In this document: one piece after another, positions 42,712-60,094 of the stretch
How the letters are laid out: each line of letters opens with the position of its first letter
Position numbering within the stretch: position 1 is the first letter of the stretch
From: Mycolicibacterium aubagnense
GTDB taxonomy: Bacteria > Actinomycetota > Actinomycetes > Mycobacteriales > Mycobacteriaceae
Length of the DNA: 64,000 nucleotides
Direction: 5' to 3'
Assembly (NCBI RefSeq): GCF_010730955.1
Contig: NZ_AP022577.1
Coordinates: forward strand, 3,100,001-3,164,000
Translations under genes and position numbers: made by a program
The notes under the pieces: model-generated
The model's input: the letters and a program-made list of their open reading frames with translations, nothing else
Database searches by the model: none
What the model was told of the DNA's origin: nothing

Positions 42712-43737
42712 TCAGCCGAACAGAAGCGCGGCTTCCTCGTAGCGCCGCTGCGGAACGGCCTTGAGCTTGCCAAGGGCCTCCGCAAAGCTCACATGGTCGA
42801 TCTCTGTGCCCTTCAGCGCCACCATCGTGCCCCAGCACCCGTCAACCACAGAGTCGATCGCCGCCATGCCCAGCCGGGTGGCCAGGACCCGATCGAACGC
42901 TGACGGCACGCCGCCGCGCTGGATGTGGCCAAGGATGGTTGCGCGGGTCTCGATGCCGGTACGGGCTTCGATCTCCGGGGCCAGCTGATCTGCGATCCCA
43001 CCGAGCCGCGGACGGCCGAAGGCGTCCAGCCCACGCTCGGAATGCGGGGACTCCATGTGTTCGGGAACGAACCCTTCGGCCACCACTATCAGTGGCGCCC
43101 GTCCGCGGGAGTGTGCGCCCTTGGCCCACTGGACGATCTGCTCGATACCGATCTTCTGCTCGGGGATGAGGATGGCGTGGGCACAGGCCGCCATGCCGGC
43201 GTGCAACGCGATCCAGCCCGCGTGCCGGCCCATCACCTCGGCGATCATGCAGCGGTGGTGCGACTCGCCGGTGGTGCGCAGCCGGTCGATCGCTTCCGTG
43301 GCAATCTGCACGGCGGTGTCGAAACCGAACGTGTAGTCCGTGGCGTCGAGGTCGTTGTCCACCGTCTTCGGCACGCCCACGATCTTCAGACCGGCGTCGC
43401 TCAGCCGCTTGGCTGCAGCCAACGTGCCCTCGCCGCCGATGGCGATGATCGCGTCGATGCCGAGCCGATCCAGGTGCGCCTTGATGACCTCGGGACCACC
43501 GCCGTTGTCGAACGGGTTGGTGCGTGAGGTGCCCAGGATGGTGCCGCCCTGCTTCGCGATACCGCGGATCGCCGTACGGGGAAGATCGATGATGTCGGCC
43601 TCGACCACGCCGCGCCAGCCGTCCAAGAATCCAACGAACTCGTGACCGTAGACGGTAATGCCTTTGAGCACGGCGCCGCGGATCACCGCATTCAAACCGG
43701 GGCAGTCGCCACCGCTGGTCAGAATTCCTATTTTCAT
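42712..43737 (-). CDS. pfkA: 6-phosphofructokinase (RuMP-cluster paralogue)
   Basis: A 341-residue phosphofructokinase. The phosphoryl-donor loop GGEGT (Gly at the position that is Asp in pyrophosphate enzymes) together with PKTVDND suggests an ATP enzyme of the actinobacterial group; the substrate site is TTGESHHRCMIAEVMGRHAGW. It follows hxlB and a cupin gene in the leftward unit and supplies fructose-1,6-bisphosphate to the clustered fba, as in the FBP-aldolase variant of the RuMP cycle. A housekeeping copy is expected elsewhere. Confidence 0.92.
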   Translation of the reverse strand: MKIGILTSGGDCPGLNAVIRGAVLKGITVYGHEFVGFLDGWRGVVEADIIDLPRTAIRGIAKQGGTILGTSRTNPFDNGGGPEVIKAHLDRLGIDAIIAIGGEGTLAAAKRLSDAGLKIVGVPKTVDNDLDATDYTFGFDTAVQIATEAIDRLRTTGESHHRCMIAEVMGRHAGWIALHAGMAACAHAILIPEQKIGIEQIVQWAKGAHSRGRAPLIVVAEGFVPEHMESPHSERGLDAFGRPRLGGIADQLAPEIEARTGIETRATILGHIQRGGVPSAFDRVLATRLGMAAIDSVVDGCWGTMVALKGTEIDHVSFAEALGKLKAVPQRRYEEAALLFG

Positions 43738-44034: not shown

Positions 44035-44397
44035 TCAGGCCGCGTAGACCACGAAGAACTTGCGGATCCGTTCCTGGATTTCCCAGGTTCCCTTCCACCC
44101 GACCGGGAAAAAGGCGGCAGATCCAGCCTCCAGGGTGACGGGGGCCGTGCCGTCCTGGGTGATGACCATGCGTCCTTCGAGGACGTGGATGGCTTCGCCC
44201 CGCTCGGTGAACTCCCAGCGGGAAAGACCCGGCTGGGCCTCCCAGACGCCGGAACGGATGCCGTGGTCTTCGTCGATGAAGGGAACCGAAGAACGCACTC
44301 CGATCGGGTCGCCCAACACCTCGGCCGACGGCTGGCCGAGCAGAGTCTCTTCGAGCTGCTCTCCGAAGCGGTCAACGGGCCGGAAGGTCTGGTTCAT
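44035..44397 (-). CDS. Cupin_3 (DUF861) small protein
   Basis: A 120-residue single-domain cupin. The beta-barrel segments WEFTERGEAIHVLEGRMVI and AGSAAFFPVGWKGTWEI are typical of the DUF861/cupin_3 group. It lies 95 bases after hxlB and about 300 bases before pfkA, all leftward. One of three cupins in the island. It could be a small-molecule isomerase or sensor in formaldehyde or sugar-phosphate handling; there is no direct evidence. Confidence 0.8.
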   Translation of the reverse strand: MNQTFRPVDRFGEQLEETLLGQPSAEVLGDPIGVRSSVPFIDEDHGIRSGVWEAQPGLSRWEFTERGEAIHVLEGRMVITQDGTAPVTLEAGSAAFFPVGWKGTWEIQERIRKFFVVYAA

Positions 44398-44492: not shown

Positions 44493-45086
44493 TCATTCGA
44501 GGTTGGCGTGCCGAAGCCACAGCTCTTCGGCCTGAATATCGGCGTGATCCCACAGCGACTGGAACACCGCGTCGGTGACGACAAACAGCACCTGTTCGAA
44601 CAACGAACCGGCGTACTGCTGCGAGGCGTTGGAACCGTGATCGGTCTTCTGCGCGGCGGGGATGATCACCACCGCATCGCAGAGCGCGGCCAGCGGCGAA
44701 TCCGCGTTGGTCGTGAACGCCGCTACCCGGGCACCCGACTTCTTCGCCGTTTCAGCCGACTTCACCACGCCCGAGGTCGTACCCGACCCGGAGGCGACCA
44801 GAAGCAAATCCCCCGCACCGATCGCCGGTGTGGTGGTGTCGCCGGCGACATGCACGTTCAAGCCGAGGTGCATCAGCCGCATCGCAGCCATCCGCAACAC
44901 CAGCCCACTACGGCCTGCCCCGGCGGCGAACACGCGTGCCGACTCCGTCAGAAGCCGAGCGAGATCAGCGACCTGCTGCACATCGACTTTGGCCGCGGTA
45001 CCCGTGATCTCGTCACCGACAAGCGACAAGTTCCGGACGAGCACATCCCCGGTTACTCTCGCGCCGAGATCGGTTGTGACAGTCAT
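44493..45086 (-). CDS. hxlB: 6-phospho-3-hexuloisomerase
   Basis: A 197-residue SIS-domain isomerase turning hexulose-6-phosphate (from HxlA) into fructose-6-phosphate, the second step of RuMP formaldehyde fixation. The SIS core is AAGAGRSGLVLRM, LLLVASGSGTTSGVV and a conserved DHGSNASQQYAGSLFEQ stretch. GAGGAG precedes the ATG. The C-terminus EELWLRHANLE recurs as a fragment near hxlA at 59465-59505. First gene of its unit, downstream of one copy of the island's shared element. Confidence 0.93.
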   Translation of the reverse strand: MTVTTDLGARVTGDVLVRNLSLVGDEITGTAAKVDVQQVADLARLLTESARVFAAGAGRSGLVLRMAAMRLMHLGLNVHVAGDTTTPAIGAGDLLLVASGSGTTSGVVKSAETAKKSGARVAAFTTNADSPLAALCDAVVIIPAAQKTDHGSNASQQYAGSLFEQVLFVVTDAVFQSLWDHADIQAEELWLRHANLE

Positions 45087-45561
45087 ATTTTCATCTCCTC
45101 GTACAGCGATGGCCTCGACACCTATCGTGCGGTCGTTCACGGGTGGGGGGAACGCCAATTTGGGATGGTTCGATCTACCCGTTTGTGTAGGCGGCGGCGT
45201 ACGCACCCCTGGTGGCCATGGACCCGGTAACACGCCGCGGCGTGGGGTCGGCGCCGAACGCCTCCCCGAATAGCCGGTTCCCGGCCCTACTTTCAGCTCC
45301 CAGCAACGTCCCAGAATGTGACCCTTGACACACCCGCAGGCGGGGTGTTCCATTCATACCGGTGAACAACGTGTCTTGTAAGGAAACATTGGCGGTCATC
45401 GTCAGAGCCGCCGCGAGGGACGTTCGATTGCCACATGCCGGTAACTCCGCCACGAGACAGCCGACATCCGCTGAATCACCAATTCGGCGCTCACGGCCTT
45501 CTGGCATTTCCCGATGCCGGGCGGAATCGCGACTCACCGCTTCAGGAAGAGGTAAATTGCC
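45087..45561. other. Divergent promoter region, hxlB / APC-permease operon
   Basis: About 475 bases without a gene. It holds the third copy of the RuMP regulatory element (45141-45191), about 90 bases from the hxlB start. Toward the other side a TTGACA (45325-45330) followed by a C/G-rich dyad may serve the rightward operon; AGGAAGAGG precedes its first ATG. Confidence 0.55.
45141..45191 (-). promoter_or_regulatory. RuMP regulatory element, copy C (upstream of hxlB)
   Basis: Aligns without gaps to copy B (59598-59649) at about 72% identity, including GGGTGGGGG, GGTTC and CTACCC-N4 blocks in identical spacing. It lies upstream of hxlB on the same side as the other copies lie from tkt and hxlA. 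Confidence 0.6.
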
Positions 45562-45903
45562 ATGAATCCAGCGCTCGACGCACGAATTCACACCATGTTC
45601 ATGCGGGATGTCATCATCGCCTCCACACTCGCGGCAGCGATGTGGGCGACATTGATATTCGTGTTCACCGCCGCTTTCAGCGTCATCGACAGCACCGCCG
45701 TCAAAGCAATACTCGCAATTGCGTTCGCTGTCTTGGGCGTATTCAACTCAATGGGACTATTGTCCATGAGCCGTCGTTACAAGATCGAGCGTGAGCATGT
45801 GTATGGCGAGGATATCCATCACATCGATGCGAATCGCCAGGCCCGGAAGGCCATTCGGAATTCCCGCCAGGCGACCCGCTCTTTGGCAACGAGCCCAGCA
45901 TGA
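45562..45903 (+). CDS. Small two-helix membrane protein, first gene of permease operon
   Basis: A 113-residue protein with two membrane helices (IIASTLAAAMWATLIFVFTAAF and AILAIAFAVLGVFNSMGLL) and a basic, His-containing cytoplasmic tail (RRYKIEREHVYGEDIHHIDA). AGGAAGAGG lies before the ATG. Its stop overlaps the next ATG (ATGA). I know no family for it; it travels with two other small membrane proteins and an APC permease, so an accessory role is likely. Confidence 0.7.
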   Translation: MNPALDARIHTMFMRDVIIASTLAAAMWATLIFVFTAAFSVIDSTAVKAILAIAFAVLGVFNSMGLLSMSRRYKIEREHVYGEDIHHIDANRQARKAIRNSRQATRSLATSPA

Positions 45904-46325
45904 CAAGCGCCACGTCAACGTCGACGAGGCAAAGCGGCGCTGGACAATTCATCGATGCCGCGACTTTGATCGGTCTGCTGTTCATCACATTGTTCGTCAC
46001 CACATTCGTCTTCGCGCAGGCAGACGAGGCGCCGAGCGCGGAGCAGACGAAAACCATCTCGCAGCTCAATATCAGCCCGGCCGAAAAACGACAGTTCGAA
46101 CTCATGAAGTCCAAGGGCATGGTAGACGATGCCACGGCCACAGAACTCGTCAAGAACAACACGCCGAGCAACAACAAGTACTCAATCGAATGGCTTCCGT
46201 TGATCGGTATCACCGCGTTGGCAGCGGCGTACCTGGCATTTGTTTATCTCATGTCATTCCGCGAATACGGCGAAGTCATCACGGCCAGGTTTGGACCGCG
46301 ATTCCAACGAGACGAGGAATCATGA
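45900..46325 (+). CDS. Small membrane protein with extracytoplasmic loop, permease operon
   Basis: A 141-residue protein. Helix one (IDAATLIGLLFITLFVTTFVF) ends in AQA, which also looks like a signal-peptidase site. A polar helical loop of about 65 residues follows (KTISQLNISPAEKRQFELMK), then helix two (WLPLIGITALAAAYLAFVYLM) and a short basic tail. ATGA overlaps join it to both neighbours. The loop would face outside and could bind substrate or a partner. No recognised family. Confidence 0.7.
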   Translation: MTSATSTSTRQSGAGQFIDAATLIGLLFITLFVTTFVFAQADEAPSAEQTKTISQLNISPAEKRQFELMKSKGMVDDATATELVKNNTPSNNKYSIEWLPLIGITALAAAYLAFVYLMSFREYGEVITARFGPRFQRDEES

Positions 46326-46522
46326 ACTTTTGGACTCTTCTTGAAAACGGCGCCTGGGTTCTGTCCGCGCTCGTGGCCAGTTGGTTGCTGTACGACGCAT
46401 ACCGCGTCGGCCGCGACTACGACGAGGACTTCCTCGTCCACACCGTCGAGGATCTCGGCGAGGACGCGGAATGGCAGCACGCGACCGCCGAGTCGCATGA
46501 CACAGAAAGGCACCCCTCATGA
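46322..46522 (+). CDS. Single-helix acidic-tailed membrane peptide, permease operon
   Basis: A 66-residue peptide with one N-terminal helix (LENGAWVLSALVASWLLYDAY) and an acidic, His-containing cytoplasmic tail (DYDEDFLVHTVEDLGEDAEW). Its ATG overlaps the stop of the preceding gene and its stop overlaps the permease ATG (ATGA on both sides), so it is made together with the permease. It resembles the small subunits seen with some transporters only in layout. Function unknown. Confidence 0.68.
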   Translation: MNFWTLLENGAWVLSALVASWLLYDAYRVGRDYDEDFLVHTVEDLGEDAEWQHATAESHDTERHPS

Positions 46523-47946
46523 GCGACGTCGATACCGCTGCAGGCGGCGAAGCGCTCACCCTCAAGAAGGTGCTTGGCCCGATCCACATCTGGGGGCTGG
46601 GTGTCGGCATCGTTCTGGTCGGCGAGTTCATGGGCTGGAACTTCACGGTGGAGAAGGGCGGCCTCTACGGTGCCCTGATCGCCTGTTGGTTCGTGGGTCT
46701 GCTCTACACCTGTGTCGTCATGATCAACTCCGAGGTGGCGTCGGCGATCCCGGCGGCCGGCGGTCAATACGCCCAGGCCAAGCACTCGATCGGGCCGCTG
46801 ATGGCGTTCAATGTGGGGCTCTATCTCACCATGGCTTACACCATGCTGGAGGCCGCCAACGCGAACGTTCTGGGCGACCTGCTCACCACGATGTCGGGGT
46901 TGCTCGGCAATAAGCAGCATCTGTCCGCCTACCCGTTCGCGGTGCTGGCGATCCTGCTCCTCGCACTACTGAATTACCGTGGCGTGCTGGCGACACTGTC
47001 GGTCAACTTCATCATCACCGGCTTTGCCTTCGTGACCATCATCGCGCTGTTCGTCGGAGTTTCCGGCTGGGACCTGGATTCCGGCACCCAATTCAGCGCA
47101 CTCGTCGGATCGAGCGATGCCGGGCTTCCCTACGGCTGGATCGGCGTGATCGCAGCGTTCCAGTTCGGCATGTGGTTCTACCTCGGCATCGAGGGCACCG
47201 CGCAGGCCGCGGAGGAGTGCCGCTCGCCGAGCCGGTCCATCCCGCTCGGCAGCCTGGCCGGCATCATGACGCTGATCATCGCGGCCAGCCTGACCTGGTA
47301 CCTGTGCTCGGCGCTGCTGCCCTGGCAGTACCTGGGTACGTCCATCACGCCGCTGTTCGACGCCGCTCAGCTCGCCCATTCGGGCGTGCTCGTCTGGCTG
47401 CTGTTCCTCGGCACGCTCGCGGCGACCCTCGCGTCGGCAAACGGCTGCATCACCGACTCCTCCCGGTCATGGTTCGCGATGAGTCGCGACCGTTATCTCC
47501 CGGAGTGGTTCGGAGCCGTGCACCCGCGGTACCGGACGCCGTACCGCTCGATCCTGTTCCTGGTGCCGGTCGCCATCGCCTTCGCGATCCTTCCACTGCT
47601 GCTCAACAAGCCGACGCTGCTGTCGACCGTGATCACCTTCTCGATTCTGTCGGGACTGCTGACCTACGCGTTTATGGTCGTCAACATGCTGCGGTTCCGG
47701 AAGCTGTGGCCGATCGGCTCCATCAAGCGGGCCTACACGCTGCCCATGCACCCGATCCCCTCGATTGCCCTGGCAGTGGTCGCGATGATCGTGTTCTTCG
47801 CGACATACCTGGGCTACGGCAGCACCCTGATGTCGATCCTGGTGTTCTACTTGCTGGCCTCGGTGTGGTTCGTCCTACGGCGGTTCAAGTACGTCGACCG
47901 GAACGCCGAGTTCACCGCGCCGTTGCCACGTCCCCGCGGTTACTGA
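46519..47946 (+). CDS. APC-superfamily amino-acid/amine permease
   Basis: A 475-residue, 12-helix transporter of the APC superfamily, closest in feel to the ethanolamine/amine group: consensus segments GEFMGWNFTVEKGGLYGALI, IPAAGGQYAQAK, LGIEGTAQAAEECRSPSRSIP and SSRSWFAMSRDRYLPEWFG. Coupled through ATGA overlaps to the three small membrane proteins before it and, by a 1-base overlap, to the next gene. In this setting a methylated amine or related nitrogen compound is a plausible substrate, but substrates cannot be read from sequence in this family. Confidence 0.83.
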   Translation: MSDVDTAAGGEALTLKKVLGPIHIWGLGVGIVLVGEFMGWNFTVEKGGLYGALIACWFVGLLYTCVVMINSEVASAIPAAGGQYAQAKHSIGPLMAFNVGLYLTMAYTMLEAANANVLGDLLTTMSGLLGNKQHLSAYPFAVLAILLLALLNYRGVLATLSVNFIITGFAFVTIIALFVGVSGWDLDSGTQFSALVGSSDAGLPYGWIGVIAAFQFGMWFYLGIEGTAQAAEECRSPSRSIPLGSLAGIMTLIIAASLTWYLCSALLPWQYLGTSITPLFDAAQLAHSGVLVWLLFLGTLAATLASANGCITDSSRSWFAMSRDRYLPEWFGAVHPRYRTPYRSILFLVPVAIAFAILPLLLNKPTLLSTVITFSILSGLLTYAFMVVNMLRFRKLWPIGSIKRAYTLPMHPIPSIALAVVAMIVFFATYLGYGSTLMSILVFYLLASVWFVLRRFKYVDRNAEFTAPLPRPRGY

Positions 47947-48632
47947 TGTCCGGAACGCTCGCGGTCGCGCTGACGCTGGCCGCAGTGGGCGTGGCGGTGC
48001 TGACGTACCTGCAGCGCCGCCACCTGGCCCGCGTCCAGCGCGACCGCACGGCTCTGTTCGAGCACGCCACCGGCGTGCTCGAACAGAGCCGTATCGTGCC
48101 TCGCGGCCTCGACTACCCCCTGCTCTACGGCCGATATAACGGCCGGAACGTACGGGTCGAGCCCGTGGTCGATGCTCTCGGCCTGCGCGTCGTCCCGGTG
48201 CTGCGCCTCATGGTCACCGTCCGTGCGCCACTTCCGGGGCAGCCGAGGTTGTCGGTACTCAGCAATGAGACCGGAAACGAGTTCTACTCCGGTCACCGCG
48301 ACCTGCTGCGGTGGCGCGACCCGGCGTGGCCCACGTGGGCTTCGGTGGCCTGTGCCCCGGAAGGTGTGGACCGCAAACTGGCCGAAACCGCCGTAGGCAT
48401 GGTGACCGAGGATTCGATGGTGAAGCAGGTACTGGTGACCGAGCGCGGTGTGCGGTGCGTTGTCCGTGGCGCACAAGCCAATTCGACGGCCTACCGCGTC
48501 ACCCGCCGGGTCGACCTGTCCGAGGTCCGAGTGACGGCGGAGAATCTGCTGCAGGCGGTCACCATGGCCGGCGAGCTGTGCGACCAGGCTGCGTCTCGTC
48601 GCCTTGACGTATCGGAGGCCGAAGCGCGGTGA
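47946..48632 (+). CDS. Hypothetical membrane-anchored protein with internal perfect inverted repeat
   Basis: A 228-residue protein with one N-terminal helix (LAVALTLAAVGVAVLTYL) and a soluble domain of about 200 residues facing the cytoplasm by charge. No known domain. Its ATG overlaps the permease stop by one base (TGATG). Codons 35-49 contain a 21-bp perfect inverted repeat (48048-48092). It is followed by a GTGA overlap with the last gene. Function unknown. Confidence 0.68.
   Translation: MSGTLAVALTLAAVGVAVLTYLQRRHLARVQRDRTALFEHATGVLEQSRIVPRGLDYPLLYGRYNGRNVRVEPVVDALGLRVVPVLRLMVTVRAPLPGQPRLSVLSNETGNEFYSGHRDLLRWRDPAWPTWASVACAPEGVDRKLAETAVGMVTEDSMVKQVLVTERGVRCVVRGAQANSTAYRVTRRVDLSEVRVTAENLLQAVTMAGELCDQAASRRLDVSEAEAR
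48048..48092. repeat. 21-bp perfect inverted repeat with 3-base loop, inside a coding sequence
   Basis: Bases 48048-48068 (starting ACGGCTCTGTTCGAGC) are the exact reverse complement of 48072-48092, separated by ACC. The hairpin would be very stable in RNA and could extrude as a cruciform in DNA. Confidence 0.9.
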
Positions 48633-48892
48633 CCCGACCAATTCACCCGTTGTTGGTGCTCCTCATCGCCGCAGTGCTGCCCGGGGTCGGACAAGTCGTC
48701 AACGGACAGCCCCGGCGTGGCCTGGTGTTCGTCTTCTACACCGTGCTGCTGGGAATGATCACTTACGCAGCGGCGCCTGCCGCGGCATCTGCCATCGGGC
48801 GGGTGGCCGGCGGGGTGTTCGTGTACGCCCTCAGCTTGCTCGACGCCTATCAGGTTGCTGCCCGGCGCTATCACGCCGCCAAGACCTCCTGA
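48629..48892 (+). CDS. Small two/three-helix membrane protein
   Basis: An 87-residue, mostly hydrophobic protein (LLVLLIAAVLPGVGQVVNGQ, GLVFVFYTVLLGMITYAA, VAGGVFVYALSLLDAYQVAA). The PGVGQVVNGQ and C-terminal DAYQ pattern is like TM2-type small membrane proteins. It starts at GTG 48629, overlapping the preceding stop (GTGA), and ends the six-gene operon. Confidence 0.68.
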   Translation: MTRPIHPLLVLLIAAVLPGVGQVVNGQPRRGLVFVFYTVLLGMITYAAAPAAASAIGRVAGGVFVYALSLLDAYQVAARRYHAAKTS

Positions 48893-48936
48893 GCTGAATC
48901 AAGATTCCGGCTGAGAGCCCGGCCAGGGACGCGATT

Positions 48937-48974
48937 GTGCCGACCAACAGGCCCAGGGGCCCGCTGGTCGGCAC
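48937..48974. terminator. Hairpin between permease operon and fba
   Basis: GTGCCGACCA (48937-48946) pairs perfectly with TGGTCGGCAC (48965-48974) across an 18-base G/C-rich loop, between two convergent operons. It may serve both. Confidence 0.6.
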
Positions 48975-49001
48975 AGGGCCGGCGGAATCACGGCGCAGGG
49001 T

Positions 49002-50021
<1,020 letters not shown>

Positions 50022-50102
50022 TGGGGACTCCTGTCTCGAGTTCTTCGGCGAATCAGGGCGAACCGGGCCGAATCTGTTGGCGCAGCACCGGATTACGCCG
50101 GA

Positions 50103-50576
50103 CTACTCCACGACCTCGCCGGTGGTTTCGTAGGCGGCGATCTTGCCGATGCGCCGGACGTGGCGCTCGGCATTGCTGAACGGTTCGGCCAGGAACGCCT
50201 CGATCAGTTCGGTTGCCTCGTCGACGCTGTGCTGGCGGCCGCCCACGGCAACGACGTTGGCGTCGTTGTGTTCGCGGGCCAGCTTGGCCGTGTCGAGGTT
50301 CCACACCAAGGCGGCGCGTACGCCCTTGACCTTGTTCGCGGCGATCTGCTCACCGTTGCCCGAGCCGCCCAGCACGATCCCGAGGGCGGCCACGCCGGCA
50401 GCCTGGTCGGCCACCACGGCGAGCGCGGCGTTGATGCAGAATGCCGGGTAGTCGTCCTCGGCGTCGTAAACCGCAGGCCCGTGGTTCACCATCTCGTAGC
50501 CCTTTGCTGACAGGGCTTCGATCAAGTGGGAGCTGAGCTCCATGCCGGCGTGGTCGGTCGCGATGTGAACGCGCAT
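50103..50576 (-). CDS. rpiB: Ribose-5-phosphate isomerase B
   Basis: A 157-residue RpiB interconverting ribulose-5-phosphate and ribose-5-phosphate. The N-terminal phosphate site HIATDHAGMELS, the GIVLGGSGNGEQIAANK loop and the RAALVWNLDTAKLAREHNDANV segment are typical. In the RuMP cycle it feeds the transketolase reactions that regenerate ribulose-5-phosphate. Between rpe and fba, same strand. Confidence 0.94.
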   Translation of the reverse strand: MRVHIATDHAGMELSSHLIEALSAKGYEMVNHGPAVYDAEDDYPAFCINAALAVVADQAAGVAALGIVLGGSGNGEQIAANKVKGVRAALVWNLDTAKLAREHNDANVVAVGGRQHSVDEATELIEAFLAEPFSNAERHVRRIGKIAAYETTGEVVE

Positions 50577-50612
50577 GAATATTGGGTCTTTCAGGCTGGT
50601 TGGGATGCGGCG

Positions 50613-51284
50613 CTAGCCGGCGAACGCAAGCTGTGCGTTGGCCCGCAGCGATTCGATGGCGTCCGCCGGCGACGGCTTTCCGTACACGGACGATCCGGCC
50701 ACGAAGATGTTGGCGCCGGCCTCCGCCGCCCGGATGATGGTCTCTTCGGTGACGCCGCCGTCGACCTGGATCGCCACGTTCACTCCGGAGCCGTCGATCG
50801 CCGCGCGGGCCCGGCGGATTTTCGGCAGGGTGACGTCCAGGAAGGCCTGGCCGCCGAAGCCCGGCTCCACCGTCATGATCAGGAGCATGTCCAGTTCAGG
50901 GAGCATGTCCAGGTAAGGCTCCACCGGAGTGGCCGGACGCAGTGCCATGCCGGCCTTCGACCCGCGCGCACGCAGCTCGCGCGCGAGTTTGATCGGTGCG
51001 GCAGATGCCTCGACGTGGAACGTCACCGAATCCAGTCCGGCGTCGGCGAACTGGGGTGCCCAGCGATCGACCTCGGCGATCATCAGATGGGCGTCCAGCG
51101 GTACGGGGCTGACCTTCTGCAGCCGTTCCACCACGGGCAAGCCGATGGTCAGGTTCGGCACGAAGTGGTTGTCCATGACGTCCACGTGTGCGGCATCAGC
51201 ATTGCTGATGCGCGCCAGCTCGGCTTCCAGGTTGACGAAGTCGGCCGACAGGATGCTGGGGTTGATGCAGCAAGACCTGGACAT
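50613..51284 (-). CDS. rpe: Ribulose-phosphate 3-epimerase
   Basis: A 223-residue TIM-barrel epimerase converting xylulose-5-phosphate to ribulose-5-phosphate, the formaldehyde acceptor. [39 protein letters not shown] and [11 protein letters not shown] hold the metal ligands and catalytic Asp pair. The ATG at 51284 lies two bases from the tal stop, so the two are tightly coupled; the longer frame upstream is a shadow of tal. Confidence 0.95.
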
Positions 51285-51286
51285 GA

Positions 51287-52405
51287 TCAACCCTTCCGGG
51301 CAGCGGCGAGGGCGCTCTCGACATCGGCCAGAAGTGACTTCCAGCTGTCGACGAACTTGTCCAGGCCTTCGGATTCGAGCAGTGCGACGACCTCGTCGTA
51401 GGAGATACCGAGCGCATCGATGGCGTCGAGCACAGCCTTTGCGTCCCCGTAGGTTCCGCTGATGGTGTCGCCGGTGACCACGCCGTGATCGAAGGTGGCG
51501 TCGAGGGTCTTCTCCGGCATGGTGTTCACCACGTCGGCAGCCACGAGTTCGGTGACGTACAGGGTGTCCGGGTACGCCGGGTCCTTGACACCGGTCGAGG
51601 CCCACAGGGGACGCTGCGGACGCGCTCCGACCTTGGTGAGCGACGCCCAGCGCTCGGTGGCGAAGAGCTCCTCGTAGACCTGGTAGGCCAGGCGGGCATT
51701 GGCAACGCCGGCCCTGCCCTTGAGTGCCTTGGCATCGTCGGTGCCGATGGCGTCGAGCCGCTTGTCGATTTCGGTGTCGACGCGGGAGACGAAGAACGAC
51801 GCGACCGAATGGATCGTGGACAGGTCGTGGCCGTTCTCGTGAGCCTGCTCCAGGCCGGACTGGAAGGCGTTGATCACGGCGCGGTAGCGCTCCAGGGAGA
51901 AGATCAGCGTCACGTTGACGCTGATGCCCTCGGCCAAGGTTGCGGTGATGGCCGCCAGACCCTGCCGGGTGGCCGGGATCTTGATCAGGACGTTGTCCTT
52001 GCCGACCTTTTTGTGCAGGACCTTCGCCTCCGCGATCGTCCCCTCGGTGTCCCAGGCGAGACGGGGGTCGACCTCGATGGAAACGCGGCCATCGAACCCG
52101 GCGGTCGCGGCTGCGACCGGGGCGAACAGGTCGCAGGCGTCGGCGACGTCGGCGGTGGTGATCTCGAAGATCGTCTCGTCGACGCTGGCACCCTGTGCGG
52201 CCAGTTCGGCGATCTTCGCGTCGTAGTCGTTGCCGGTGGTGATCGCGGCCTGGAAGATCGACGGGTTGGTGGTGACACCCACGACGTTCTTCTCGTCGAT
52301 CAGCTTCTGCAGCGAACCGCTGTCCAGACGACCACGGGAAAGGTCATCGAGCCAGATCGAGAGGCCGGCTTCCGAAAGCTGTGCGGTGGGGGTTGCTTTG
52401 CTCAT
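51287..52405 (-). CDS. tal: Transaldolase
   Basis: A 372-residue transaldolase moving a dihydroxyacetone unit in the rearrangement phase of the RuMP cycle. The Schiff-base lysine region is [18 protein letters not shown]; the N-terminal signature is [12 protein letters not shown] and a later segment reads [12 protein letters not shown]. The ATG at 52405 is preceded by GAAGAAG. Between tkt and rpe in the same unit. Confidence 0.95.
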
Positions 52406-52517
52406 CGCTTCTGCTTCTTCCTTGAATAACGTGAATAAAGTTGACTGGCCTGCGGTCGCGCCGCGGGACGGCCGGGCAGACGGTCCCGCGGCGCGCCGAG
52501 CACCGGGTGTTGTGGGG

Positions 52518-54656
52518 TCAGTTGCCTGCGGCGGCGATGGAGTCCTTGGCAGCGGCGACAACCGCGTCTGCGGTGATGCCGAACTCCGTGAACAGGCGCT
52601 TGTAGTCGGCCGAGGCGCCGAAGTGCTCCAGGCTGATGGACCGGCCGGCGTCGCCGACGAATTCCTTCCAGCCCAGGGCCAACCCGGCCTCTACCGAGAC
52701 CCGGGCGGTCACGGCCTCAGGCAGCACGGACTCGCGGTAGGCGGCGTCCTGCTGGTTGAACCACTCGACGCACGGCATGGAGACCACGCGAGTGGGGATG
52801 CCGTCAGCCTGGAGCGCTTCCCGGGCCTGCACCGCGAGGTGAACCTCGGAGCCGGTGGCGATCAGCAGCACCTGGGCCGGGACGGTGGCGCCATCCTTCG
52901 AGGCCTCCGCCAACACGTACCCGCCCTTGGCGACGCCGGCGCTGGACGCGAAGGTGTCGCCCTCGGCCGCGCCTTCGCCGCGAGCGAAGGTCGGGATGTT
53001 CTGCCGGGTCAGCACGATGCCCGCCGGGTTGTCGTGGTTTTCCAGGATGGTCTGCCACGCCACACCGACCTCATTGGCGTCGCCGGGACGGACAACATCC
53101 AGGCCGGGGATCGCCCGCAGGGTCGAGAGTTGTTCCACCGGCTGGTGCGTCGGGCCGTCCTCGCCGAGGCCGATCGAGTCGTGCGACCAGACGTAGACCG
53201 AGGGCACCCCCATCAGCGCGGAGAGCCGGATGGCCGGGCGCTGGTAGTCGCTGAAGATGAGGAATGTGCCCGAGAACGCACGGGTGGGTCCGTGCAACAC
53301 GATGCCGTTGACGATCGACGCGGCCGCGTGCTCGCGGATGCCGAAGTGTAGGACTCGTCCGTAGGGGTTGCCCTTCCACGAACTCGTCGAGCGGGAGGCC
53401 GGGATGAACGACGGCGATCCCTCGATGGTGGTGTTGTTCGATTCGGCCAGGTCAGCCGAGCCGCCCCACAGCTCGGGCAGAACCGGGCCCAGGGCGTTGA
53501 GAACCTTGCCGGATGCGGCACGTGTCGAGACGTCCTTGCCGGCTTCGAACACGGGCAGCACCGCCTCGACACCGGCAGGCAGTTCCTTGGCCTCGATGCG
53601 CTGCAGGAGCGCATCACCTTCCGGATTGCCGGCCTGCCAGGACTTGAAGGCGGCGTCCCATTCGCTGCGGGCAGCGGCTCCGCGGTCCAGCGCCGCACGG
53701 GTGTGGGCCAGGATCGACGGGTCGACCTCGAATGACTTGCCGGGGTCGAAGCCCAGCACCTCCTTCACCGCCGCGACTTCCTCGGCGCCCAGCGCAGAAC
53801 CGTGGATCTTGCCTGTGTTCTGCTTCTTCGGGGCCGGGTAGCCGATGATGGTGCGCAGCGAAATGATGGACGGCTTCGAGGTCTCGGCCTTGGCAGCCAG
53901 CAAGGCTGCGTGGAGCTCCTCGACGTCTTCCTTGTACTCGCCGGTCCGGGTCCAGTCCACCCGCTGGACGTGCCAGCCGTAGGACTCGTATCGCTTGAGG
54001 ACGTCCTCGGTGAAGGAGATGTCGGTGTCGTCCTCGATCGAGATGTGGTTCTCGTCGTAGACCACCACAAGGTTCCCGAGTTCCTGATGCCCGGCCAGGG
54101 AGCACGCCTCGGAGGTCACGCCCTCCTGCAGGTCGCCGTCGGAAGCGATGACCCAGACGGTGTGGTCGAACGGGGAGGTTCCCGGGGCGGCGTCGGGGTC
54201 GAACAGACCGCGCATCCGGCGCTGCGAGTACGCGAAACCAACCGACGAGGCGAGCCCCTGGCCCAGCGGACCGGTGGTGATCTCCACACCCTTGGTGTGC
54301 TTGTACTCCGGGTGGCCCGGCGTCAGCGAGCCCCAGGTACGGAAGGACTGAAGGTCTTCCAGCTCCAGCCCGTAGCCGGCCAGGAACAGCTGGATGTACA
54401 GCGTCAGCGACGAGTGGCCCGGAGACAGGATGAACCGGTCGCGACCCAGCCACTCCGCGTCGCTGGGGTCATGGCGCATCAGCTTCTGGAACAACAGGTA
54501 GGCCACCGGCGCCAGGCTCATCGCCGTTCCGGGGTGGCCATTGCCCACCTTCTCCACTGCGTCCGCGGCCAACACCCGGACGGTGTCCACTGCGCGCTGG
54601 TCCTCGGCGGTCCAGTTCAACGACGTGGTGTTGATCAAATCTGCGGTTTGAGTCAC
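52518..54656 (-). CDS. tkt: Transketolase
   Basis: A 712-residue thiamine diphosphate enzyme that regenerates pentose phosphates in the RuMP cycle. The ThDP motif is [20 protein letters not shown]; catalytic His residues lie in [18 protein letters not shown] and KIHGSALG; the dimer Glu and pyrimidine domain are around [17 protein letters not shown] 54656 follows AGGAGA. First gene of the five-gene unit and divergent from the LuxR-type regulator, sharing element A. Confidence 0.95.
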
Positions 54657-54733
54657 GACTTCTCCTCTTGATTCGGTCATCGGCCAGGGGCCGCACGGGG
54701 CTTTCCGGTACATCGCGCTGAAATCGATGATTG

Positions 54734-54795
54734 CGAACCAAACGGGCAGGGGTAACGCTATTTTCTGACGGTTGCGACTACACTTTCGAGTTGGT
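54734..54795. promoter_or_regulatory. RuMP regulatory element, copy A (tkt / regulator)
   Basis: A 62-bp block about 79% identical to copy B (59589-59650), including an identical 13-mer TTTTCTGACGGTT and a dyad-like CTACACTTTCGAGTTGG. It lies between the divergent starts of tkt (54656) and the regulator (54828). Confidence 0.75.
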
Positions 54796-54827
54796 TGCGC
54801 CTGTTTCACCCGCGATAAACTGTCGGA

Positions 54828-56114
54828 GTGAGCGCCACCACTACCCCATCTGCTGAACTTCCGTGGCCACTTCTGGACGCCGTGGCGTCACTCGCCGGCG
54901 CCCCGTTGGCCCAGATCGCCGAACGCCTTCGGACGGCGGCGCTGCCCTACCTCAGATGCACCGCGCTGGTCATCTTCACCGAAGACTGCACCGGCCGGCC
55001 GCAGAAGAAAGCCGGCGCGGAAACGATCATTTCGCGGGTCTCCATCGCGGAGCTCGACGACATTCGCGCGACCCTTGCGGATGAGACGCCCTGGCAGGGG
55101 GAAGCCGAGCTCGCCGGGCGGCCCCGACCTGTTCTCGCCCTGAAGCACGCAGCGTCCGGCGCCCTCCTCGTCCTTGCGGATCCGCAGCCGACCGACGCAG
55201 TACACGACGACGACGGACTCGACGTGGTGACGTACCTGTGGCGCATCGCGGCCCAGCGCATCCAGGAGAAAGTGGCCGATGCGCCGCCGTCGTACCTGTT
55301 GGAATCGCGAGCGGCGTCGGCTGAACGAATCCGCGTGACGGCCGAACTGACCGATCTGCATTCCACCACCCTGGAAACCCTCCTGGCCGCCCTCCGCTCA
55401 TCGTCAATGGACGATGCGGCAGCCCGGACAGCTGTCACCGACCTCGCGGCCAGGGCCCTGGTCGGGCTCAGGACTCTCAGCGACCGCACGACGGACATGG
55501 CAGAAGTGCCGGTTGCCATCGCTTTCGAGCGCCTACGGGAGGATCTGCGACCGCTCGCCCGTTTCAGCGGTCTCGAGGTCGAATTCATCGAACCCCCGCA
55601 GAATGGCCGGGCGCTGCCCGGCGAGGTTGCGCACGCGGGACGCGCCATCGTCCGCGGGCTGGTGTTGGCCATGATGGAACAGCCCGACATCAGTCGGGTA
55701 CGGACGCAGTGGGACTGCGACGGCGAAAACCTGCTGATCAACGTGCGTGACGACGGCCGGGGCATGCTCGCCGCGGACTCGCCGAGCATCGGCCGGCTGG
55801 ACCGCCAGGTGCAGGCGCTCGACGGACAGCTGCGGATCGAGGTCATGAGCGGCTGGGGTGCGGACGTGTTCGTCACGCTGCCCCTGGACCTACAGGCCCG
55901 CCCCGCCGGGAATGTCGCCGGGTGGGACCTTGCCGCCCGCGAACTCGAGGTGCTCCAGCACCTGGTCGCCGGACATCGCAACCGGACAATCGCGTCGACG
56001 CTCGGGATCAGTGAGAACACGGTCAAGTTCCATGTGCGGAACTTGTTCAGGAAGCTCGACGTCAGCTCACGCACCGAGGCGATTGCGTTGGCGAACAGCC
56101 ACGGCGTCCGGTAG
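54828..56114 (+). CDS. GAF / histidine-kinase-ATPase / LuxR-HTH fusion regulator
   Basis: A 428-residue one-protein sensor and DNA-binding factor. Residues about 10-150 look like a GAF domain; residues about 165-360 resemble a histidine-kinase dimerisation plus GHKL ATPase (NVRDDGRGM near 305 and GWGADVFVTLPL near 345); residues 365-428 are a LuxR-type helix-turn-helix (LAARELEVLQHLVAGHRNRT, then ISENTVKFHVRNLFRKL). No phosphoacceptor receiver domain is present. GTG start at 54828. Lying inside the RuMP island and sharing element A with tkt, it is the best candidate for controlling the three units. A signal such as formaldehyde is speculation. Confidence 0.85.
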   Translation: MSATTTPSAELPWPLLDAVASLAGAPLAQIAERLRTAALPYLRCTALVIFTEDCTGRPQKKAGAETIISRVSIAELDDIRATLADETPWQGEAELAGRPRPVLALKHAASGALLVLADPQPTDAVHDDDGLDVVTYLWRIAAQRIQEKVADAPPSYLLESRAASAERIRVTAELTDLHSTTLETLLAALRSSSMDDAAARTAVTDLAARALVGLRTLSDRTTDMAEVPVAIAFERLREDLRPLARFSGLEVEFIEPPQNGRALPGEVAHAGRAIVRGLVLAMMEQPDISRVRTQWDCDGENLLINVRDDGRGMLAADSPSIGRLDRQVQALDGQLRIEVMSGWGADVFVTLPLDLQARPAGNVAGWDLAARELEVLQHLVAGHRNRTIASTLGISENTVKFHVRNLFRKLDVSSRTEAIALANSHGVR

Positions 56115-56156
56115 CCGGCCCCGCGCGGTACCGGGGAACCGCCGCGCCGGAGGTCG

Positions 56157-57089
56157 TTACGACGCCTTCTGGTAGGCGACCGCGCCCGCACCCAGACTGC
56201 GAACCGTTTCACCGAAGACCTCGTCGGGGTCGAGTCGGCGGAGCTCCTCGGCGAGGCAGCCTTTGAGGGTGGGACGGGGCAGGGAGATTCGTTGCGCAGG
56301 CTGTCCGGGCTGGGTCAGTTCAGCCACTGAACGACCCGGCCGGAGCAACTGAACATCCCCGGTCTCGCGGCCGAGACGGACACTGTGGATACCCGTCCCC
56401 GCAGGCTCAGCTACAACAGTCACCGGAACCTGCAGGCGCAACGCGAGCCAGGCCGCGAGGAGCCGAGTGCTCGGCGAGTCTGAGGCGCCCGCGACGGTCA
56501 CCGAGGTGACGGGCGCGGAATCCACGTGGTCCAGCGCCGCTGCCAACTGGGTCCGCCAGTTTGTGAGACGGGTCCATGCGAGGTCGGTGTCGCCGGCCCG
56601 GTAGGTGTTCCGGATGTTCTCCAACGCCGCTACGGGATCGGCCGCGTTCGCGGAGTCGGTGATCCGGCGGTGCGCAATGCGTCCGATGGAGGTCTCGCCG
56701 ACGTTGGCCGGTGCGTTGCCCGGCCACCAGGCGACGATGGGTGCGTCGGGCAGCAGTAGCCCGGCGACGACGGATTCGCTTTCCGTGGCAAGTTCCCCAT
56801 ACCCACGCACGATGACGACCTCGGAGGCGCCGGCATCGCCGCTGACCCGAATCTGGGCGTCCAGTCGGTTCGGTGCCGACGCCCCGCCATCGGCGAGGAC
56901 GATGATCCGGCAGGGGTGTTCCCGGCTGGCTTCGTTGGCGGCGTCGATGGCCTCCGTTTCGAGCCCGACCTGGGTGACCACCACCAGCGTCAGCACCCTG
57001 CCGAGGGTGACCACACCGTGCTGCTCCCGGAGGGCCACGATCTTCTTTGAAATCTCCGCGGAGGTGGTGTCGGAAAGGTCGATGATCAT
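56157..57089 (-). CDS. opcA: Glucose-6-phosphate dehydrogenase assembly protein OpcA
   Basis: A 310-residue OpcA protein that assembles or allosterically stimulates G6PDH in Actinobacteria and cyanobacteria. The segments VTLGRVLTLVVVT, APIVAWWPGNAP and LTNWRTQLAAALDH are characteristic. Its ATG overlaps the zwf stop (ATGA). End of the hxlA-zwf-opcA unit; converges with the regulator gene. Confidence 0.92.
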   Translation of the reverse strand: MIIDLSDTTSAEISKKIVALREQHGVVTLGRVLTLVVVTQVGLETEAIDAANEASREHPCRIIVLADGGASAPNRLDAQIRVSGDAGASEVVIVRGYGELATESESVVAGLLLPDAPIVAWWPGNAPANVGETSIGRIAHRRITDSANAADPVAALENIRNTYRAGDTDLAWTRLTNWRTQLAAALDHVDSAPVTSVTVAGASDSPSTRLLAAWLALRLQVPVTVVAEPAGTGIHSVRLGRETGDVQLLRPGRSVAELTQPGQPAQRISLPRPTLKGCLAEELRRLDPDEVFGETVRSLGAGAVAYQKAS

Positions 57090-58642
57090 GGCCTTCTCCA
57101 GGTTCGTCCGTCGCGGGCAAGCAGCTCGGTGGCAGAGGCCGGGCCCCAGCTACCTGGTGCGTACTGTTCGGGCTGTTCGTCGAGACTGGCCCAGTACTCC
57201 TCGAACGGATCGAGGATTTTCCACGACAATTCGACTTCGGTGTGCCGCGGGAACAGCGGCGGCTCTCCGAGTAACACGTCCACGATGAGCCGCTCATAGG
57301 CTTCCGGACTGGACTCGGTAAAGGCGTGGCCGTAGCCGAAGTCCATGGTGACGTCGCGGACCTCCGTCTGGGTTCCCGGCACCTTGGAGCCGAACCGGAT
57401 CGTGGCGCCCTCGTCTGGCTGGACACGGATCACCACGGCGTTCTGGCCGAAGTCGTCCTCGGCGAATTCATGGAACAGCAGGTTGGGGGCGCGCTTGAAC
57501 ACCACGGCAATTTCGGTCACGCGGCGGCCCAGGCGCTTGCCGGCGCGCAGGTAGAACGGCACGCCCGCCCAGCGCCGCGTGTTGATGTCCACGCGGATGG
57601 CCGCATAGGTTTCGGTGGTGGAGTCGGCCGGGATGCCCTCTTCTTCCAGGAAGCCGAGGACATGCTCGCCGCCCTGCCAGCCGCCGGTGAACTGTCCCCG
57701 GGCCGAGTGCGTCGATAAGTCGTCAGGCAGCTTGACCGCAGCCAGGACCTTTTCCTTCTCCGCGCGCAGGTCGTCCGCATCGAACGAGATGGGTTCCTCC
57801 ATGGCCGTCAGAGCCAACAGCTGGAGCAGATGATTCTGGATGACGTCGCGGGCCGCACCCACGCCGTCGTAATAGCCGGCCCGGCCGCCGGTGCCGATGG
57901 ACTCAGCCATGGTGATTTGGACGTGGTCGACGTAGTTGGCATTCCAGAGCGGCTCGAAGAGCTGGTTGGCAAAGCGCAGGGCCAGGATGTTCTGGACCGT
58001 CTCCTTGCCGAGGTAATGATCGATCCGGAACACCGCGTCCGGCGGGAACACGGACTCGACGACGTCGTTGAGTTGACGAGCCGACTCGAGGTCGTGCCCA
58101 AAGGGCTTCTCGATCACCACCCGGCGCCAGGTGTCGCCCTCGGCTTGCGCCAGCCCGGAATCGGACAGCTGACGGCAAACCTGCTCGAAGGCCTTCGGTG
58201 GGATGGAGAGATAGAACGCGTGATTGCCCCGCGTACCGCGCTGCTCGTCGAGTTCCTCGAGCGTTGCACGCAGCCGCTTGAACGCCGTGTCGTCGTCGAA
58301 CTCGCCGTGCACGAAGCGGATGCCTTCGGACAGCTGCTCCCACACGGTCTCGTCGAACGGCGTCCGGGCATAGGCCGTCACGGACGCTTTGACCTCCGCG
58401 ACGAAGTCCACACTCGTCCAGTCGCGCCGGCCGAAACCCACCAGCGCAAAGCTCGGCGGCAGCAGGCCCCGGTTCGCGAGGTCATACACCGCCGGCACGA
58501 GCTTCTTCCGGGCCAGGTCCCCGGTAACGCCAAAGAGCACCAGAGACGACGGGCCGGCAATGCGGCTCAGCCGACGATCGCGAGGATCCCGGAGCAGGTT
58601 GCGTCTGGGCCTCACGCTCGAAACGCCATGATCAACGGACAC
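57086..58642 (-). CDS. zwf: Glucose-6-phosphate 1-dehydrogenase
   Basis: A 518-residue G6PDH. The NADP-binding motif is LFGVTGDLARKKL, the substrate lysine motif is FRIDHYLGKETVQN, and EKPFGHD is conserved. It starts the oxidative branch that burns formaldehyde-derived hexose phosphate to CO2 and NADPH in the dissimilatory RuMP cycle; no 6-phosphogluconate dehydrogenase is seen here, so it must come from elsewhere. GTG 58642 is the called start; later in-frame starts are possible. Follows hxlA after a hairpin. Confidence 0.94.
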   Translation of the reverse strand: MSVDHGVSSVRPRRNLLRDPRDRRLSRIAGPSSLVLFGVTGDLARKKLVPAVYDLANRGLLPPSFALVGFGRRDWTSVDFVAEVKASVTAYARTPFDETVWEQLSEGIRFVHGEFDDDTAFKRLRATLEELDEQRGTRGNHAFYLSIPPKAFEQVCRQLSDSGLAQAEGDTWRRVVIEKPFGHDLESARQLNDVVESVFPPDAVFRIDHYLGKETVQNILALRFANQLFEPLWNANYVDHVQITMAESIGTGGRAGYYDGVGAARDVIQNHLLQLLALTAMEEPISFDADDLRAEKEKVLAAVKLPDDLSTHSARGQFTGGWQGGEHVLGFLEEEGIPADSTTETYAAIRVDINTRRWAGVPFYLRAGKRLGRRVTEIAVVFKRAPNLLFHEFAEDDFGQNAVVIRVQPDEGATIRFGSKVPGTQTEVRDVTMDFGYGHAFTESSPEAYERLIVDVLLGEPPLFPRHTEVELSWKILDPFEEYWASLDEQPEQYAPGSWGPASATELLARDGRTWRRP

Positions 58643-58689
58643 GGTGAATGACAGCTCTCTACCGGATTGACTTCTCGGATTGGGGGTGC

Positions 58690-58743
58690 CCTGGAAGGTG
58701 GTGTCCTGCAGTCGCTTTCACGGCGCTGGACACCACCTCCAGG
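58690..58743 (-). promoter_or_regulatory. Intercistronic hairpin between hxlA and zwf
   Basis: A 15-bp stem with one bulged A (arms 58690-58706 and 58728-58743, core GGTGGTGTCC/GGACACCACC) and a 21-base loop. No T tract follows in the direction of transcription, so it may be an mRNA stabiliser or processing site rather than a terminator. Confidence 0.55.
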
Positions 58744-58760
58744 AGGCCAAGGGCGCGCGA

Positions 58761-59384
58761 TCAGGCAATCGCCGCGCGCAGCTCCTTGGCAGCCAACGCC
58801 GGATCGGCAGCACCGTAAATAGCACCACCGGCAACAGCAACCTCCGCACCGGCCTTCTGCACCGCCGCAATGGTGCCCACCTTCACACCACCGGCCACCG
58901 AGAACGGAACCCGGGCCGCCTCACCAGCGGCCAGCAGGCCGGTCAGATCGAAGCCCGGCTTGGCCTGCTCATCCAGACCCGCGTGCATCTCCACGAACTT
59001 GGCACCCAGGGCGCGGACCTGCTGCGCCCGCGCGGCCTTGTCCTCGATACCGATCAGGTCGACAACAACACCCTTGTTGTGCGCCTGCGCCGCCTTCACC
59101 GCACCGGCAATCGTGGAATCGTCAGCCGAACCCAGCACCGTCATCAAGTCAGCACCGGCCTTGAACGCGATATCAGCCTCCAGCTCACCGGCGTCCATCG
59201 TCTTCATATCGGCAAAAACGATCTTGTCCGGATGCGCGTTCTTGACCGCCGTAATCACCGACAGGCCCTCCGCCTTGATCAACGGAGTGCCCAACTCGAT
59301 GATGTCGACGTACTCGGCCACCTTGCCGGCCAACTCAAGAGCAGCCTCGGTGGTCAGCAAATCAATAGCAACCTGCAGCTTCAT
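58761..59384 (-). CDS. hxlA: 3-hexulose-6-phosphate synthase
   Basis: A 207-residue TIM-barrel aldolase of the OMP-decarboxylase superfamily that adds formaldehyde to ribulose-5-phosphate. Catalytic signatures are DIIELGTPLIKAEG, FADMKTMDAGELEAD and SVAGGVKVGTI. AGAAAGAAGGA precedes the ATG. First intact gene of the leftward hxlA-zwf-opcA unit. Its partner hxlB is not next to it but 14 kb away, and an hxlB tail fragment lies upstream. Confidence 0.95.
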   Translation of the reverse strand: MKLQVAIDLLTTEAALELAGKVAEYVDIIELGTPLIKAEGLSVITAVKNAHPDKIVFADMKTMDAGELEADIAFKAGADLMTVLGSADDSTIAGAVKAAQAHNKGVVVDLIGIEDKAARAQQVRALGAKFVEMHAGLDEQAKPGFDLTGLLAAGEAARVPFSVAGGVKVGTIAAVQKAGAEVAVAGGAIYGAADPALAAKELRAAIA

Positions 59385-59464
59385 GGTGCGTCCTTCTTTC
59401 TGTTAGGGAACTACGTCGGTACTGGAACTGTGATGGTCGGCTGGGACGGTTGACCGCCCGGTCG

Positions 59465-59505
59465 TTTCGAGGTTGGGGTGGCGGAGCCAGAGTTCTTCGG
59501 CCTCT
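59465..59505 (-). pseudogene. hxlB 3'-end remnant
   Basis: On the minus strand this encodes EAEELWLRHPNLE, nearly the same as the HxlB C-terminus QAEELWLRHANLE; the DNA differs from 44495-44533 at only a few bases. The stop codon is lost. Nothing else of hxlB can be recognised upstream. It lies between element B and hxlA. Confidence 0.72.
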
Positions 59506-59588
59506 TCAAACCCATCGCTGCCCCCTTCGATTCGGCGATCCGGCTGCGGGGAGCCGAACAGATGATTTCCGGTTGACACTCATCGTTC

Positions 59589-59650
59589 CGAAGCAGACGG
59601 GTGGGGGTAATACTGTTTTCTGACGGTTCCACCTACCCTTTCGGGTTGGT
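59589..59650. promoter_or_regulatory. RuMP regulatory element, copy B (hxlA)
   Basis: Matches copy A over 62 bp at about 79% and shares its TTTTCTGACGGTT core. It contains a near-perfect dyad CCTACCC-TTTC-GGGTTGG (59632-59649). It lies about 205 bases from hxlA, with the hxlB remnant between. Confidence 0.75.
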
Positions 59651-60077
59651 CGGATAGCTCGCCCTCGCGACGCCGTCGGCGCACTCGGCGGCCTCGCCAC
59701 CCGCGCGGACCTGCGCGCATCGACAACGCGTCGCGTCGTGCGCCCCGGTCATCGGATTCGTGATCGCGTTGGGCGCCAGCGAGATCCCCGGCGATCAAAT
59801 GGAAACTTCTTTCACGGAAATCCTTCTCGAACGGTTGACATGAACGCCTGTCCATGTCAGGGTTCATGAACGCCGATAGTGATAGGCATCACACCAGGCG
59901 CGTTGGGATCAGAACTCGGTTGGTTCTCCGGGAGTCACGGACTGTCAGCTTTCCAGACAATTCTTCCCAGAGCCGAAATCCGATTCAATCCAGTTTGCTG
60001 AAGCGATCTCTGGCGCACTCCAACTTGCGACCACTGCGCAATTCCAATATTCGGACACATACACCAAGACAAACAGT

Positions 60078-60094
60078 TCGAACCAAAGGTTCGA
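60078..60094. promoter_or_regulatory. Perfect 7-3-7 dyad upstream of the EutQ-like cupin
   Basis: TCGAACCAAAGGTTCGA, 41 bases before the ATG at 60136. It resembles an SOS box but has a 5-base rather than 4-base spacer, so a dedicated repressor is more likely. Confidence 0.55.

Follow-up and report, generated by a model that had tools for sequence, protein, structure and literature searches.

A conserved promoter-associated element precedes the RuMP operons of Mycolicibacterium aubagnense and co-occurs with the gene of a LuxR-HTH protein

The stretch analyzed here, a window of 64,000 nucleotides from contig NZ_AP022577.1 of Mycolicibacterium aubagnense, contains three operons of the ribulose monophosphate (RuMP) cycle on the minus strand, and upstream of each of them lies a copy of a shared sequence element, in the same orientation. 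Copy A (54734..54795) is located between tkt (transketolase, 52518..54656, start set by eye) and a divergent gene on the plus strand (54828..56114), which encodes a protein of 428 aa with GAF-like and kinase-like parts and a LuxR-type helix-turn-helix (LuxR-HTH) of the GerE family (E 1.5e-19). Downstream of tkt follow tal (transaldolase, 51287..52396) and rpe (ribulose-phosphate epimerase, 50613..51272), both with uncertain starts, rpiB (ribose-phosphate isomerase, 50103..50576) and fba (class II aldolase, 49002..50021). Copy B (59589..59650) is found upstream of hxlA (3-hexulose-6-phosphate synthase, 58761..59384; TIGR03128, E 1.1e-74), zwf (glucose-6-phosphate dehydrogenase, 57086..58642) and opcA (56157..57089), and copy C (45131..45192) upstream of hxlB (6-phospho-3-hexuloisomerase, 44493..45086, start set by eye; TIGR03127, E 1.8e-71), a EutQ-like cupin gene (44035..44397; PF05899, E 1.9e-18) and pfk (phosphofructokinase, 42712..43737; TIGR02483, E 1.8e-137). 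The identities that the initial annotation had given to the ten enzyme genes are thus backed by family profile matches, from Pfam for those listed here without an accession.

The alignment of copies A and B, earlier put at about 79% over 62 bp, is ungapped with 50 of 62 identical positions (81%). Copy C is identical to B at 36 of 51 positions (71%, close to the 72% first estimated) and to A at 34 of 51; stretched to 62 bp it shares 40 positions with B and 37 with A. Neither match was reached in shuffled sequence, where the maximum over 30 dinucleotide shuffles of the window was 34/62 for A and 31/51 for C, and the best other match to A in the window, with B and C set aside, was 32. The 13-mer reported as common to A and B occurs exactly at these two places in the 6.32 Mb genome, and with one mismatch allowed at two more, a further copy (D, below) and a place on the second contig with non-fitting surroundings. 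The dyad with a TTTC centre noted in B is present as ACCC-TTTC-GGGT. All copies had been called intergenic, and this holds with the tkt and hxlB starts set by eye at 54656 and 45086, each with a ribosome-binding-like stretch before it; the longest open frames of both genes would reach into copies A and C.

To search genomes we used an ungapped profile, begun from four copies and refined on 80 loci, and then a sequence-only model built from 49 copies. At score 10 the profile gave 100 matches in 1.49 Mb, and five column-permuted profiles gave none. The model search of the own genome (6.3 Mb, 150 of 679 first-look candidates scored) returned four strong matches, B, D, A and C (E 2.1e-17 for B, 5.3e-15 for A and 2.0e-12 for C, the extremes being B and C). 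They head tkt, hxlA, hxlB and a second hxlA, so the placement before the first gene of the three RuMP units was borne out. Had the element been found at many unrelated promoters the proposal of a regulon would have failed; all four strong matches lie at RuMP genes, and the next match outside this island had an E of only 0.32. A specific element before several functionally linked operons, as expected for the regulon of a transcription factor, is thus present. The three copies first described stand, and the genome holds four full copies and a weaker fifth. Copy D (G000:C1:3177839-3177900, equal to L005:13839-13900, minus strand) lies about 14 kb to the right of the window end before the second hxlA, whose product has the same family scores as that of the first. 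This second hxlA, its full copy D and a divergent XRE-cupin regulator gene occupy L005:13068-13900. The fifth, copy E (E 0.0083), is in the region L005:14736-15394 before a fructokinase-like gene that is divergent from a FAD oxidoreductase gene; the fructokinase-like gene resembles fructokinase over one later section only (NF006957, positions 165-263 of its 302, E 8.6e-7). Copy E retains the A and T of the -10 signal (below) if a one-base insertion is allowed, and three further members of the genus keep a copy at this position (L121-L123). Since E and the copies in L122 and L123 all lie between the fructokinase-like gene and the FAD oxidoreductase gene, we regard this as a conserved but weaker site. 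Apart from E beside the FAD oxidoreductase, no match of the own-genome search adjoins the tmm-, dmm- and mgs-like genes of the island.

The alignment of all copies predicts a promoter module of about 70 bases with operator-like repeats, a -35 that is weak and a -10 that is conserved. The initial annotation had placed A, B and C correctly, and the module extends past its limits by some 7 bp on the downstream side, as far as the -10; neither copy D nor the promoter core nor the repeat of 22 bp had been noted there. Numbered from 0 in the sense of the element, the profile contains O1 (1-18, CTACCC-N4-GGGTAG), O2 (23-40) and O3 (45-62). The most conserved bases are the TT at 40-41, which start a -35-like TTACCC, and 17 bp beyond this hexamer follows nAnnAT at 63-68. 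A64 and T68 are jointly present in 95% of 95 unique copies, and in 88% together with A67, with a median of 1% over offsets 62-94. The signal is also seen in 87% of the 23 copies that are not beside the regulator gene, and its offset stays fixed, whereas the distance to the start of the downstream coding match ranges from 43 to 205 bp. In copies A to D the -10 reads AATCAT, AACGAT (59582-59587), CACGAT (45124-45129) and GATGAT, respectively. For copy A this places O1 at 54777..54794, the weaker O2 at 54755..54772 (22 bp from O1), the -35-like hexamer at 54750-54755, O3 at 54733..54750 (44 bp from O1, within the -35/-10 spacer) and the predicted tkt -10 at 54727..54732, all on the minus strand, with a predicted start near 54720. 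The repeats would be centred near -65, -43 and -21 relative to this start, and as a spacing of 22 bp is about two helical turns they would lie on one face of the DNA. The autocorrelation of the profile was 0.56 at a shift of 44, a value reached by none of 2000 column permutations, and O1 is its best palindrome (0.69, centre 9.5). AAC-N14-GTT was tried as a second dyad (centre 31.5), where the outer bases are complementary in 68-94% and most inner ones are not, and this region was treated as O2. For a promoter of the regulator gene itself on the opposite strand, a TAnnnT starting at -20 is present in only 26% of 72 divergent copies (22% one base off) and in at most 4% of the 23 other copies, which is no more than suggestive of autoregulation.

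Conservation reaches back some 74 bp from the predicted start and this, together with the repeat, argues against a promoter for an alternative sigma factor without a dedicated binder. The words GAAC and CGTT do resemble promoters of the extracytoplasmic function (ECF) type. In such promoters 16-17 bp separate the two words, and the spacing of 13 bp measured by eye does not fit, so we consider this explanation very improbable. A conserved RNA leader or riboswitch, to which the O1 dyad could contribute by pairing as RNA, is hardly credible, as in 88-95% of copies the element precedes the predicted -10 and would therefore be left out of a transcript running into the RuMP genes, and Rfam gave no match in window positions 44000-60600.

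The distribution of the element across genomes follows that of the LuxR-HTH gene. We fetched the best 80 of 406 loci with regulator relatives, using the regulator protein, from named genomes, and in 75 of the 80 the element is just upstream of the LuxR-HTH gene, facing tkt or hxlB. Among 99 copies (those of the 80 loci, the window and L005) 55 head hxlB, 35 tkt, 4 gap or gap-pfk and 2 hxlA, 96 in sum; of the remaining three one heads the fructokinase-like gene and two have no assigned gene. The four gap or gap-pfk copies were assigned by hand, and the glyceraldehyde-3-phosphate dehydrogenase identity was tested for L037 (NF006139, E 6.5e-239). In 297 genomes of the genus, searched with stricter filters and 16 candidates scored per genome, we found 28 matches at E <=0.01, 24 of them strong (E <=2.2e-8, in 8 genomes) and four weak. 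Outside the own genome there are 20 strong matches: 11 are placed before hxlB and 7 between tkt and the regulator gene, one (L121) heads the fructokinase-like gene known from copy E and one (L102) is at a contig end. The weak ones are E, L122, L123 and L108, the last without a recognised neighbour. The regulator or a relative (E <1e-60) is encoded in 12 of the 297 genomes and an ortholog (E <1e-190, >=84% identity) in 8, and these are exactly the 8 genomes with a strong element (E <1e-7). HxlB scores above its curated cut-off in 12 genomes, and in the four of them that lack the ortholog (G012, G056, G141 and G251) no element was found by the model search or by a direct scan around hxlB. Similarly, in a sample of 345 genomes from the class the same three (G000, G298 and G482) have both the ortholog (E <1e-170) and strong elements; G482 is not independent of the fetched loci, as two of its copies lie in L031, a locus of the same genome or of a near twin. 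The matrix search that the initial annotation had proposed for this and related genomes gave strong matches only at RuMP loci at home and an element tracking the ortholog in the genus. Within genomes the copies are more alike than across them (0.775 vs 0.742 for 14 same-genome pairs, 0 of 5000 permutations; copies scoring <=55 left out and species relatedness uncorrected).

The initial annotation had named the LuxR-HTH protein as candidate binder, and co-occurrence in the genus (8/8 vs 0/4 genomes) and adjacency in the fetched loci both support it. We think it likely that the element marks an actinobacterial RuMP regulon controlled by this protein as binder, be it as activator or repressor. 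One of the TetR, GntR or XRE regulators of the island could instead be the binder and the LuxR-HTH gene a passenger: gntR flanks some hxlB copies (L014, L029 and L040) and the XRE-cupin gene flanks copy D. This we find improbable, since the element tracks the LuxR-HTH ortholog in 8/8 genus and 3/3 class genomes, and in the 80 loci gntR was matched in 4, tetR in 5 and xre in none, a weak test as the loci end at 10 kb or at contig ends.

Several observations weigh against control of a RuMP regulon by the LuxR-HTH protein through a three-repeat operator. Within the profile, the shift of 22 (0.30, reached by 2 of 2000 permutations) stays under the 95% level of the best permuted shift (0.34; shifts 10-45), which only the shift of 44 exceeds, so that the case for O1 and O3 as repeats is firm and that for O2 weaker; the palindromes at O3 (0.38) and O2 (0.35) are no better than those at neighbouring centres. 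The adjacency is partly ascertained, because the regulator served to fetch the 80 loci, and five of the 80 regulator genes (L017, L035, L042, L044 and L080) have no element just upstream in the divergent layout. In the searches across many genomes, scoring was limited to the best first-look candidates and the filters were stricter, by which weak copies may be lost. Weak matches (E 0.0016-0.0094) do occur in three genomes without the ortholog, G003, G469 and G559, the latter two having one each at E near 0.002. Regulators of 41-45% identity lie divergent beside hxlB in G012, G251, G056 and G295, and the element was not recognised at them (L124-L127); these regulators, divergent from hxlB-hxlA, may belong to a sister system that uses a different operator. 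Of the five copies in G482, two (L141 and L143) lie away from RuMP genes, one by a BCCT transporter gene and one between a copper amine oxidase gene and a DUF5134 gene, and the regulon there may reach amine uptake and oxidation. In a separate case, G281 (L129:1673-4405), a second relative of the regulator is encoded beside a gene for glutathione-independent formaldehyde dehydrogenase (TIGR02819, E 4.3e-221), with a partial look-alike of the element that scores 3.5 over the first 47 positions. This relative is shortened, by eye lacks the C54 motif described below, and its HTH part looks broken.

The only Pfam match of the regulator above cut-off is the C-terminal GerE HTH (PF00196, E 1.5e-19, residues 368-422), which makes it a LuxR/GerE-type factor. 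No receiver domain was among the Pfam matches at E up to 5, so it does not group with NarL/FixJ response regulators, and no HxlR-type winged helix (MarR/DUF24) was matched. An AlphaFold2 model with 37 orthologs (mean pLDDT 79, pTM 0.53, the domain arrangement being uncertain) predicts a GAF-like part, long helices, a kinase-like catalytic part and then the HTH. Most of the 50 Foldseek matches listed belong to histidine kinases, phytochromes or the units of chemotaxis kinases (E 2.0e-9 to 2.5e-6, with a TM-score by query of only 0.23-0.31), HATPase_c is a weak Pfam match (E 0.051), and the modelled helices and catalytic domain resemble the HisKA_3-type kinase fold. With hhalign, kinase L132 of the own genome was aligned over the catalytic part only (E 5e-4, probability 30%) and kinase L131 gave nothing useful. 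In this low-probability alignment the N-box Asn is replaced by Ala281, which is >90% conserved. The H-box column, placed by eye in a part that no program aligned to a kinase, is Thr175 in the pattern ER-x-R-x-x-x-E-L-[T175]-D, and none of the 22 rows examined, out of 44 in the alignment, has a phosphoacceptor His at that column. With Ala281 at the N-box and Thr175 at the H-box phosphotransfer is unlikely, and we regard the kinase-like body of the LuxR-HTH protein as degenerate. C54, G56, R57, P58, K60 and K61 are invariant in the 37 orthologs. As HxlR of Bacillus subtilis, the positive regulator of hxlAB, is activated by formaldehyde via a Cys-Lys link (PMC7835342), the C54-x-G-R-P-x-K-K motif of the GAF-like domain is by analogy a candidate formaldehyde sensor.

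HxlR controls the HxlA and HxlB step of formaldehyde fixation, as the protein described here would. It belongs to the winged-helix proteins of the MarR/DUF24 type, a family that the LuxR-HTH protein does not match in Pfam. The mycobacterial DevR (DosR) is likewise a LuxR/NarL-type HTH protein with closely packed sites, the start-proximal one overlapping the -35 (PMC3029386). DevR carries a receiver domain and works with separate kinases and, unlike its sites, the repeats here are spaced by 22 bp with the last inside the -35/-10 spacer. In M. smegmatis, methanol oxidation is controlled by the kinase/response-regulator pair MnoSR, with a palindromic consensus site found once, before the mno operon (PMC11303327); our locus would again be mycobacterial one-carbon control with a palindromic site, in which a single fused protein and four full sites at RuMP genes replace the pair and its one site. 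The clusters of methylamine-using Mycobacterium and Arthrobacter described in PMC5023230 carry the same genes as here, and their strains 141 and MA-N2 are among our loci (L011, L017 and L019). In the part of that paper available regulatory genes appear as a colour in a figure legend only, and its main text does not contain the word promoter. The literature covered, which included PMC5023230, PMC12366331 and PMC11303327 and consisted mostly of main texts open without subscription, yielded neither a regulator nor a promoter element for the RuMP genes of actinobacteria.

In the mechanism that we favour, the LuxR-HTH protein encoded beside copy A would bind the repeats, probably as adjacent dimers, and most likely switch on tkt-tal-rpe-rpiB-fba, hxlA-zwf-opcA, hxlB-cupin-pfk and the second hxlA together, and perhaps also the fructokinase-like gene after copy E, when a one-carbon substrate is oxidised to formaldehyde; formaldehyde or its product would be the signal. 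Given that the LuxR-HTH protein is the binder, it could also be a repressor that is released by formaldehyde or a sugar phosphate. A protein bound at O3, between -35 and -10, would more often repress, which counts against activation, and O3, centred near -21 in the core promoter, has a left half conserved about as well as that of O1. Repression is nevertheless unlikely in our judgement, as TTACCC at -35 and nAnnAT at -10 match the consensus only weakly, a feature that suits an activator, and both HxlR, acting on hxlAB of Bacillus, and DevR, in its mycobacterial arrangement, activate (PMC7835342 and PMC3029386). Activation is therefore favoured. The most far-reaching version is tentative and, taken as a whole, rather doubtful: a dead histidine kinase fused directly to a LuxR HTH would have become a one-component regulator whose body senses formaldehyde, possibly by the C54 motif, in place of passing phosphate. 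It would bind an array of three operators built into the core promoter of the entire cycle, both in mycobacteria and in bacteria like Arthrobacter, and would have spread with the pathway by horizontal transfer.

Between copy B and hxlA lies a remnant of hxlB, its last 13 codons (59466..59504, minus strand; tblastn 85% over 13 aa, E 5.8e-6); at the DNA level the match to locus L014 of M. brisbanense falls into two blocks. In relatives (e.g. L012-L014) the matching copy heads hxlB-hxlA with a full hxlB. The comparison indicates that an hxlB once under B is deleted in the own genome and that the remaining hxlB is the one under C. The two hxlA genes are 96.5% identical over 115 bp of the gene start and their promoters 76% over 95 bp, and as the promoters are far less alike than the gene starts the shared element is more than a fresh duplication. 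Next to these genes is the methylated-amine island (window 59854-62984, L005:5192-8121 and L006:1-3218), with genes for trimethylamine monooxygenase, a DmmA-family protein with a reductase-like partner, and members of the glutamine-synthetase, GATase and GXGXG families that resemble gma and mgsABC. Another EutQ-like cupin gene adjoins the trimethylamine monooxygenase gene. From its amine genes, formaldehyde is probably produced beside the RuMP genes.

RuMP-cycle enzymes are a main target of synthetic methylotrophy. The finding of the element and one unstudied regulator gene together across actinobacteria makes the missing RuMP control system directly testable. If our reading is true, one transferable cassette, the regulator and a promoter of about 75 bp, would coordinate the RuMP cycle in actinobacteria and would reach even a methane-using mycobacterium (Candidatus Mycobacterium methanotrophicum, L012), and a kinase body would have been reused as the sensor of a one-component regulator. 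It would also give a handle on the signal of formaldehyde load and a candidate inducible promoter. For the host, a methylamine-using environmental mycobacterium, this would mean that the same switch stands before its formaldehyde-fixing sugar-cycle operons.

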